Below, in pieces: positions 34,431-38,983 of a DNA stretch of 64,000 nt (positions are counted from its first letter, which is position 1; each line of letters starts with the position of its first letter). The notes beneath the pieces were generated by a model. The model was not told where the DNA came from, did no database searches, and saw nothing but the letters and a program-made list of their open reading frames with translations. Location of the stretch: NCBI RefSeq assembly GCF_000855665.1, contig NZ_JXSS01000110.1:1-64000 (forward strand), written 5' to 3'. The DNA comes from Lysobacter sp. A03. GTDB taxonomy: Bacteria; Pseudomonadota; Gammaproteobacteria; Xanthomonadales; Xanthomonadaceae. Position numbers and translations under genes: made by a program.

Positions 34431-34568
34431 AAAAAAGTGGTAATGGGGGTCGGTTAGTCTGCTAGACTTGCCGGCTCGCAACGCTCCACGCGTGTCTGCC
34501 GTTCCAAGGCGCGCCACAACTGAATTCGCAATCGCGCGGATATCGGTGCACTCATCAGGTAACTACAC
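34431..34568 (+). promoter_or_regulatory. rpsN-rpsH gap with small hairpin (candidate regulatory element)
   Basis: The gap is 138 bases in a region where neighbouring genes are separated by a dozen. CGG (34451-34453), a TT bulge, AGTCT (34456-34460), loop GCT, AGACT (34464-34468), TG and CCG (34471-34473) form an irregular stem with a two-by-two internal loop. rpsH encodes S8, whose known sites are irregular stems with internal loops, so an S8 site is possible. A TAGACT on the 3' side looks like a -10 but has no credible -35. Confidence 0.35.
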
Positions 34569-35545: not shown

Positions 35546-35899
35546 ATGAACAAGAACATCGCCCGCCTGCGCCGCGCCAAGTCCACCCGTTCGCATATTC
35601 GTACGCTCGGTGTCCCGCGCCTGTCCGTGCTGCGCACCGGCCAGCACCTGTACGCGCAGGTATTCACTGCCGACGGATCGCAGTGCCTCGCCGCTGCCTC
35701 GACCACCCAGTCGAGCGTGATGGAAGGCCTGAAGAACGGACGCAACGCCGACGCCGCCACCAAGGTTGGCCAGGCAATTGCCGCCGCGGCCAAGGCCGCC
35801 GGCATCGAGAAGGTTGCTTTCGACCGCTCGGGCTATCGCTATCACGGTCGCGTCAAGGCGCTGGCCGATGCCGCCCGAGAGGGTGGCCTGCAGTTCTAA
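35546..35899 (+). CDS. rplR: 50S ribosomal protein uL18
   Basis: uL18 binds 5S rRNA. The 117-residue protein begins [20 protein letters not shown] and ends [23 protein letters not shown], the family signature. It is followed by an unusually long 153-base gap before rpsE. Confidence 0.97.
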
Positions 35900-36052
35900 G
35901 CCGGGACGGGGCCTGCGCCCCGTTCCTCTACCTGCCGACGCGGGTCGCGTCGGGTGTGATCCCAGGTTCCTGTGGTCGCACGGCGCCCGGAAGTGTCAAC
36001 AATCATAAGCGGCACCGCCGCAAATTCCCTATTCAAACCAGGTAACTGCAAG
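35900..36052 (+). promoter_or_regulatory. rplR-rpsE gap with three consecutive hairpins
   Basis: No gene is visible. Three stems lie almost end to end. The first is 35903-35912/35917-35926 (ten pairs around ACGGGGC/GCCCCGT, loop CTGC). The second is 35935-35941/35947-35953 (CCGACGC/GCGTCGG). The third is 35954-35966/35969-35981 (GTGTGATCCCAGG with CCTGTGGTCGCAC, two wobbles and one mismatch). None has a U-run. About 70 less structured bases and AGGTAA lead to the rpsE start. In E. coli this gap is short. The stacking suggests a regulatory RNA or processing site. Confidence 0.55.
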
Positions 36053-36583
36053 ATGGCTAACGAACGCGATTCACGGGGGCGTGGTCCCCGCGACGAAATC
36101 GACGACGGGATGATCGAGAAGCTGATCACCGTCAACCGTGTCAGCAAAACCGTCAAGGGCGGTCGCCAGTTCACGTTCACCGCATTGACGGTGGTCGGCG
36201 ACGGTGGTGGCAAGGTTGGCATGGGTTACGCGAAGGCGCGCGAAGTGCCGGCCGCGATCCAGAAGTCGATGGAGCAGGCTCGCAAGAACATGAAGGGCGT
36301 CGATCTGAACAACGGCACGCTGTGGCATTCGGTCAAGTCCGGCCACGGCGCGGCGCATGTGTACATGCAGCCGGCGTCGGAAGGTACCGGTGTGATCGCC
36401 GGCGGCGCCATGCGCGCGGTGCTCGAGGCGGTCGGCGTGCGTGACGTGTTGGCCAAGGCCACCGGTTCGCGCAACCCGATCAACCTGGTCCGGGCAACCC
36501 TGCGTGGCCTGTCCGAGATGCACTCGCCGGAAAAGATCGCAGCCAAGCGCGGCAAGAAGGTCGAGGAATTGAACCATGGCTGA
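36053..36583 (+). CDS. rpsE: 30S ribosomal protein uS5
   Basis: uS5 is at the mRNA entry and affects accuracy. I chose ATG 36053 ([11 protein letters not shown], 176 residues), eight bases after AGGTAA; the frame is open upstream to 35972 but that lies in the structured gap. The protein has [39 protein letters not shown] and the [20 protein letters not shown] loop. Its stop lies inside the rpmD start (eight-base overlap). Confidence 0.97.
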
Positions 36584-38584: not shown

Positions 38585-38983
38585 GCGAAAGGTGTTGATT
38601 CAAGCCAGTCACTTCGGCTAAACTGGCGCGTCATCTTCGGCGTACGTTGCTGCGGATGCTGCTGATGTATCGAAAGCCCGGCCTCCACACCGGCTTTCAT
38701 CAGGGCGACCTGCGCGACGTCTCGCGCGCAGGTGGATCCGGACCCGTCTGCGCGCCAGAGTAGCGCGCGGTGTCCGGGAAGGCGGCTTGACAGCGCTTTC
38801 CCGGTCAGTCCTGGTTCGTCGCCGGAGCATGGGCACACTCCCCATGCCGTTGCGGTGCTGCGTCAACCGACGGCGCACTGCTTCCTACAACCCGAGGCCT
38901 AGATGATTTTCCGATTCACTGACCAGTGAACCTTTCCACCGAGTTGTCAGGGCTCGGTTGCCAAACCAGTTGGAGATCGCGTT
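38585..38983 (+). promoter_or_regulatory. secY-rpsM gap: alpha-operon promoter and multi-hairpin leader
   Basis: These 399 bases hold no rpmJ or other recognisable gene. After a promoter at 38595-38624 come four hairpins: 38672-38698 (GAAAGCC/GGCTTTC, one bulge), 38708-38716/38725-38733 (ACCTGCGCG/CGCGCAGGT), 38774-38784/38794-38804 (eleven pairs, one wobble) and 38827-38833/38841-38847 (GCATGGG/CCCATGC). In E. coli, S4 represses the alpha operon through a pseudoknot just upstream of rpsM; this longer leader could serve the same end, which is inference. Confidence 0.55.
38595..38624 (+). promoter_or_regulatory. Likely sigma-70 promoter of the alpha operon
   Basis: TTGATT (38595-38600), an 18-base spacer and TAAACT (38619-38624). 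The spacer length is the same as in the str and S10 promoters of this window. It lies just after the secY stop, so spc and alpha genes may be separately controlled. Confidence 0.65.

Follow-up and report, generated by a model that had tools for sequence, protein, structure and literature searches.

The spc mRNA of Lysobacter sp. A03 contains a conserved, structured RNA between rplR and rpsE, which we read, at about even confidence, as an undescribed ribosomal-protein leader situated inside the polycistronic message and controlling translation from rpsE onwards. The conservation of this RNA, its structure, its strand, its place, and its phylogenetic range are established. It lies in the window, the whole stretch of 64,000 nucleotides analysed here, in which an earlier note had drawn attention to three hairpins in a 153-base gap. 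The gap is real, with the rplR stop at 35899 and the rpsE start at 36053, and its counterpart in E. coli K-12 is 14 nt, as short as the note had it. The accompanying picture of an otherwise tightly packed operon stands only in part: the rplR-rpsE gap is long, but by the ends of the open reading frames so are the rpsN-rpsH gap (138 nt) and the secY-rpsM gap (399 nt). In the minimum-energy fold the three stems lie where the note placed them, at 35903-35926, 35935-35953, and 35954-35981, with 11 pairs and one mismatch in the third in place of the roughly 13 pairs claimed. Conservation is highest at 35999-36025, a segment that lies downstream of the three stems and was missing from the note's list. 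The features of the locus are as follows.

35546-35899, + strand: rplR (uL18), the upstream cistron (open reading frame)
35900-36052, + strand: rplR-rpsE intercistronic RNA, 153 nt (fold z -3.8)
35903-35926, + strand: P1 hairpin, 10 pairs, stem 1 of the earlier note (minimum-energy fold; sequence not conserved)
35931-35933, + strand: 5' strand of the pseudoknot stem, CCU, partner 35942-35944 (covariation)
35935-35953, + strand: P2 hairpin, 7 pairs, 35935-35941/35947-35953, stem 2 of the earlier note (changes on both sides in 6 of 7 pairs)
35942-35944, + strand: 3' strand of the pseudoknot stem, GGG, in the P2 loop (covariation)
35954-35981, + strand: P3 hairpin with GUUC tetraloop at 35966-35969, stem 3 of the earlier note (fold, alignment)
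35999-36025, + strand: P4 core, ACAAUCAUAA-GCGGC-ACC-GCCGC-AAAU, stem 36009-36013/36017-36021, the best conserved part (conservation)
36040-36043, + strand: likely Shine-Dalgarno sequence of rpsE, AGGU (judged from the sequence)
36053-36583, + strand: rpsE (uS5) with an Arg-rich N-terminal extension (open reading frame, translation)

The gap folds at -71 kcal/mol, compared with -54.9 (sd 4.2) for 200 dinucleotide shuffles, none of which folds as well (z -3.8). For the comparison across species, we took the stretch from the rplR stop to the rpsE start in GTDB contigs and in further genomes of the window's family. Of 149 family genomes drawn, 145 had an rpsE match and 142 were examined; G047 and G142 (cut by contig ends) and G022 (start unparsed) were left out, and in G022 the core pattern directly adjoins rpsE despite the unparsed start. 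Gap lengths assigned by script range from 16 to 279 nt with a median of 157, the smallest (16 nt in L216, 31 nt in L213) being the result of mis-picked start codons. The gap of Lysobacter spongiicola DSM 21749 (L035) is identical to that of L115 in the window's genus, g1.

The P4 core, directly downstream of the three stems, has the consensus ACAACN(A/C)YAA-[GCGGC]-loop-[GCCGY]-A and precedes rpsE in 139 of the 142 Xanthomonadaceae genomes examined. It was located with the pattern CAA[CT]..[TC]AAG and, after it, a hairpin of 4 or more pairs, so that constancy at these positions and full pairing in the sequences retained are given by construction, and the number of gaps that fit is the measure of conservation. 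The pattern fits 158 of 168 distinct gaps, or 158 of 162 outside L058-L063. The 10 gaps that do not fit comprise these six loci of other lineages, two that by eye are one base off (L053, L143), and two with a degenerate core (L206 and L044, the latter identical to L209). Outside the fixed positions, the base 5' of CAA is A in 155 of 158 sequences. The 5' strand of the stem is GCGGC in 153, and the first pair is a G-U 81 times and a G-C 77 times. The stem stays paired through double changes in GUGGC/GCCAC (n = 2), GCGAC/GUCGU (n = 2), and GCGAU/GUCGU (n = 1), and by eye L290 likewise keeps pairing by a double change to GCGGU/ACCGC. In 155 of 158 sequences, 18-46 nt separate the end of the stem from the picked rpsE start, the exceptions being two mis-picked starts (L048, L216) and one distance of 15 nt. 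The core does not overlap the Shine-Dalgarno sequence.

We also searched 99 family genomes with a loose form of the core pattern, which gave 95 matches in 91 genomes. By comparison of coordinates by eye, 88 of the 95 lie beside rpsE; the other seven are in G016, G030, and G091 or are second matches in G048, G069, G078, and G085. A reversed pattern gave 87 matches in the same 99 genomes; the loose pattern is thus no rarity on its own, and its location is what is informative. This placement bears on the idea that the core is bound by a small ligand or by a non-ribosomal RNA-binding protein of the order. Strict conservation of the core without similarity to rRNA would fit such a ligand, as would the finding that, within the order, only three families have the core at rpsE. 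A global regulator, however, should have sites at several genes, and we regard this reading as improbable.

Upstream of the core, at least 75 nt are present in 118 of the 158 sequences. After 11 with P2 absent or mis-parsed were dropped, 107 long gaps remained, and for pair counts these were reduced to 80 by removing 7 duplicates and 20 sequences whose P2 loop has 4, 6, or 7 bases. Two alignments were made, A1 with 66 of 118 selected cores and A2 with 63 of the 80 selected long sequences; several of the 17 sequences excluded from A2 are of the Xanthomonas type or lack P2, so the RNAalifold result and the long covariance model, R2, lean to the other type. RNAalifold on the 63 sequences finds P2, P3, and P4, with double changes in 17 of 22 pairs. 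A hairpin of at least 6 pairs is present at the P1 site in 92 of the 107 long-form relatives, a count that has no chance control. P2, listed above with 7 pairs, has 8 in the window's minimum-energy fold. Beside the base of P3, columns 44 and 74 of A2 hold G.A 28 times, A.G 19 times, GG 11 times, GC 3 times, AC twice, and AA never (n = 63); the G.A/A.G exchange hints at a possible conserved non-standard pair at the junction of P2 and P3.

The loop of P2 is complementary to the bases just upstream of the hairpin, CYY facing RRG, as seen by eye across species. In the 80 distinct sequences, P2 and this pseudoknot together have 98.4% of cells paired, a percentage that for P2 is partly by construction since the script that picked P2 demanded 6 of 7 pairs, and 134 double-changed cells compared with 36.0 in shuffles; when the registers are shifted by 1-3, pairing drops to 33-43%. 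The pseudoknot pairs played no part in the choice of sequences. Taken alone, they are paired in 96.3% of cells compared with 82.4% in shuffles, with 34 double-changed cells compared with 7.4 (0 of 500 shuffles), and shifted registers give 27-63%. The outer pair is CG in 53 sequences, UA in 6, GU in 5, AU in 3, GC in 3, UG in 1, and unpaired in 9. On a tree of rplR, both bases change on the same branch 11 times for the outer pair (2.96 expected) and 6 times for the middle pair (0.62 expected), numbers reached in 0 of 5000 draws in either case. The inner pair, which mostly varies from C-G to U-G, does so twice (0.82 expected, p 0.19) and is not significant. On the same tree, six control pairs drawn from the pseudoknot strands and the positions beside them are without excess (p 0.19-0.88), and two controls that mismatch the P2 strands show some (p 0.02 and 0.005). 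In an unguided covariation scan, the outer and middle pairs rank 6th and 21st, in the company of pairs from P2 and P3 and of a column block that distinguishes two sequence types. A stem of 3 pairs, a 1-nt linker, a stem of 7 pairs, and a 2-nt linker make a compact H-type geometry, which is sterically good. On these comparisons, P2 forms an H-type pseudoknot in most Xanthomonadaceae, with both helices supported.

These results also bear on whether the hairpins are anything more than chance products of an unconstrained spacer. The sequence is GC-rich, P1 is poorly conserved, and P1-P3 have been lost repeatedly, all of which would suit a chance origin, but the covariation and conservation results refute it for P2, the pseudoknot, P3, and P4; with P1 excepted, we find it hardly credible. 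The earlier note had suggested a check for covariation over relatives, and the compensatory changes that the check brought out in stems 2 and 3, together with the pseudoknot and the strongly conserved core, lend strong support to its proposal of a lineage-specific cis-acting RNA.

The pairs themselves identify the strand. U-G in the pseudoknot (34 of 80 sequences) and G-U in the first P4 pair are mismatches on the opposite strand, and thus the molecule under selection is the mRNA, on the + strand. A terminator scan found no intrinsic terminator or attenuator on the + strand of the gap, in agreement with the earlier view that the stems are not simple terminators, and a scan for promoter-like sites in the gap found none. 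One terminator-like site is present on the minus strand, at 36009-36021, and it is what would favour a DNA-level feature, namely an internal promoter or a minus-strand terminator. Its count equals the mean for shuffled sequence, also 1.0, and the G-U pairs in 81 of 158 P4 stems can form on the + strand only, on which ground we reject the minus-strand terminator; a feature of the DNA is very unlikely overall.

The two parts of the element differ in their history. P1-P3 are absent in two members of the window's genus, L111 (71 nt gap) and L112 (62 nt gap), where the core alone remains, and they are missing from further lineages as well; other secondary losers of P1-P3 likewise keep the downstream core. 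The earlier note had named loss of the stems in close relatives as a finding that would count against its reading; such loss does occur for stems 1-3 in L111 and L112, but the core is kept. On a weak single-gene tree, parsimony gives one gain and six losses for the module containing P2 and P3. This pattern, together with the observation that the P4 stem has only 5 conserved pairs and that P1 and P3 are short for RNase III, counts against a processing site at which RNase III, RNase E, or another enzyme would cut the spc transcript between rplR and rpsE. A long intercistronic gap with stable hairpins is what such a site would look like, and we consider it unlikely.

Persistence of the core after loss of the upstream module is also compatible with an element that works without any protein on translation or mRNA stability, as an insulator, standby site, or stabiliser, with rpsE translated independently of rplR. 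The folded RNA and the A-rich ACAAC flank just 5' of the ribosome-binding site would suit this role, and no rRNA mimic was found for the core. On the other hand, a generic open or stable site would not require a core that obeys a single exact pattern (158 of 162 distinct sequences) or a pseudoknot maintained through double changes. We consider such a protein-free element possible, if somewhat doubtful.

We looked for the mimicry of rRNA in several ways. The 15-nt 5' half of the core was below zero in 16S, and in 23S and flanks it was within the background of random 4.5-kb pieces of the window. In local alignments of 66 cores with the genome's own 16S, the mean of 15.5 shows no excess over shuffles (15.9-16.4); with the genome's own 23S, the mean of 17.5 is just above all ten shuffle means (16.6-17.4). 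At the level of sequence, the core has no clear similarity to the genome's own 16S or 23S beyond shuffles. An octamer common to the core and 16S, ACAAGCGG, and a resemblance of AACUCC...GCCGC to the 16S 530 region, both seen by eye, were treated as chance. A kissing interaction between the P3 loop and the core (RUU with AAY) was also rejected, as C/U changes in the core do not by eye track A/G changes in the loop.

The window's own minimum-energy fold pairs 35929-35934 (UACCUG, the 5' strand of the pseudoknot included) with 36039-36044 (CAGGUA), placing 6 pairs over the Shine-Dalgarno sequence. The mean length of the longest such pairing in the 107 sequences is 2.95 bases, compared with 2.87 with shuffled partners, a value that 21 of 200 shuffles reach, and 5 or 6 pairs occur in 7 of the 107, including the window and its nearest relative, L002. 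The pairing is thus no longer than with shuffled partners and no conserved switch is visible; a Shine-Dalgarno on/off switch was discarded as a family feature, the alternative pairing not being conserved.

The taxonomic range of the core was examined with a covariance model, R1, which has matches in 76 of the 200 genomes sampled from the order, among them all 36 of the window's family, 32 of f12, and 7 of f3. In 274 genomes across the class, R1 gave only three matches, all in the window's own family, and 0 of 271 elsewhere; the search scored at most 32 candidates per genome under strict filters, and misses are possible. The remaining match in the order, in f9 (G231), was taken as false, being on a different contig from rpsE. 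We then inspected rpsE itself in 30 order genomes, selected once the R1 result was known. The core is at rpsE in 16 of 16 R1-positive f3 and f12 genomes inspected, and none was found there in the 14 genomes inspected from nine other families, which comprise 13 R1-negative genomes and G231. At nine Rhodanobacteraceae-type loci found without R1, by uS5 similarity (L049-L057), the core is exact in eight and changed by one base in the ninth. In the order sample, then, the core is found at rpsE in three families, Xanthomonadaceae and two sister families. The long model R2 finds 31 of 36 family genomes at 54 bits or more; its matches at 28-38 bits in f3, f7, and f12 were not counted as the long form. 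We note that in 13 of the 14 coreless loci (L263, L264, L268, L277, L278, L280, L282-L284, L286, L288, L289, L291, L292) the script-picked rplR-rpsE gap is 17-70 nt, and that L292, in f8, has a gap of 173 nt with unrelated sequence.

The position, strand, structure, and range of the element suit a ribosomal-protein leader better than any other reading. Under the leader reading, the P4 core, with its single-stranded ACAACNAYAA and its GCGGC/GCCGY hairpin, would be the ancestral recognition element, to which the upstream module of H-type pseudoknot and P3 would have been added in Xanthomonadaceae. A ribosomal protein of the operon, present in excess, would bind the leader RNA, and the bound leader would hold the rpsE start in a form closed to ribosome loading. 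The output of uS5 would then fall, and that of uL30, uL15, and SecY, whose genes are closely spaced, would follow by translational coupling. The long gap would uncouple rpsE from rplR, so that the distal half of the operon would need a control of its own. We infer the protein ligand, the repression, and the coupling, the last two steps drawing on the known logic of such leaders and on the close spacing downstream. The candidate ligands are uS5, as the product of the first gene controlled; uS8, the spc regulator of E. coli; and uS4, a repeated autoregulator.

An Arg/Asp-rich N-terminal extension of uS5, of the RGRDRDR type (36053-36100 in the window), is present in most Xanthomonadaceae examined, and no extension of this type was seen at the f3 and f12 loci we looked at. 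The pseudoknot/P3 module is present in 112 of the 158 sequences, 107 of them parsed and five recognised by eye (L033, L146, L149, L150, L153; L146 and L153 also match R2). An RGR-type extension accompanies it in 111 of the 112, and the remaining one, L133, has an Arg-rich variant. Among the 46 sequences without the module, 38 are without the RGR type, some of which, L192 among them, have another Arg-rich stretch, and 8 keep an RGR-type extension. Parsimony places the gain of the module and the gain of the extension on one branch, with a clade of 13 that has neither, and common ancestry therefore explains much of the association. We regard the association as a lead towards uS5 as ligand, not as proof. 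In a doubtful extension of the leader reading, uS5 would read a two-module mRNA sensor, the conserved body of the protein contacting the order-wide P4 core and the Arg-rich extension contacting the pseudoknot/P3 module; if true, an RNA module and a ribosomal-protein extension arose together. To the best of our knowledge, uS5 has never been shown to regulate its own synthesis.

Two other gaps of the operon are long. The rpsN-rpsH gap, 34431-34568, is 138 nt in the window and 33 nt in E. coli, and it contains CGGATATCGGTG at 34537-34548, just 5' of the rpsH Shine-Dalgarno sequence. Allowing at most one mismatch, 27 of the 29 loci L029-L057 have this 12-mer, and of the two without it L034 stops short of the site; none of the 51 loci L058-L108 has it. 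The rpsH element has the look of another leader, independent of the rpsE one, and may be the site of uS8 in the order. Upstream of it, at 34460-34468, a TGnTATAAT-like -10 box, TGCTAGACT, can be seen by eye, and the same gap in several relatives among L029-L057 has boxes of TATAAT or TATAGT type, also by eye; these suggest an internal promoter that would split the spc operon. The secY-rpsM gap, 38585-38983, is 399 nt, and it measures 54-436 nt in 28 of 29 loci L029-L057; no Rfam leader was found in it.

Comparison with known systems indicates that the RNA family is new and that its kind is most probably known. Rfam 15 gives no match at the gathering score in 20000-50000 and none up to E 5 in 35850-36100, and we found no description of an rpsE element in the open-access literature covered by our searches. 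The element is untranslated mRNA directly 5' of a ribosomal-protein gene, and it has conserved structure with compensatory changes on the mRNA strand. Passages of PMC7247131 describe ribosomal-protein leaders as preceding ribosomal-protein genes, as usually not widespread, and as differing among lineages, with several unrelated leaders known for uS4. The rpsE element resembles those leaders in being a structured untranslated RNA 5' of a ribosomal-protein gene in one lineage and in combining helices with conserved unpaired flanks (PMC7247131). None of the 20 leaders in Table 1 of PMC7247131 stands before rpsE, and uS5 is not among the ligands of that table. The rpsE element differs from those leaders in lying inside an operon and in having no detected rRNA mimicry or Rfam match.

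One parallel is within the same operon. In its passages on spc control, PMC10931766 gives uS8 as the regulator known in E. coli, acting at an internal site that controls distal cistrons. That operator is at the start of rplE, whereas the rpsE element is elsewhere and has a different structure (PMC10931766). The window's rplE start, compared by eye, is without the GUAGUA/UACUAC stem of E. coli. A second point of comparison is the uS4 alpha-operon leader of E. coli, a pseudoknot-containing regulator of the neighbouring ribosomal-protein operon, which we take to be Rfam Alpha_RBS, RF00140. The rpsE element is in a different place and has a different topology, and there is no Rfam match in the window's operons; we know of no counterpart of the P4 core in the uS4 leader.

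According to the same passages of PMC10931766, spc control in B. subtilis and other species is unknown. Control of spc outside E. coli and Vibrio is an open question, to which the rpsE element brings a specific RNA whose helices are defined and whose bases are strongly conserved, located ahead of an essential ribosomal gene in the group to which Xanthomonas, Stenotrophomonas, and Lysobacter belong. Its pseudoknot, compact and backed by covariation, is a further natural example of this fold. Taken together, the rpsE and rpsH elements suggest that in these bacteria control of the operon is split into separate segments.
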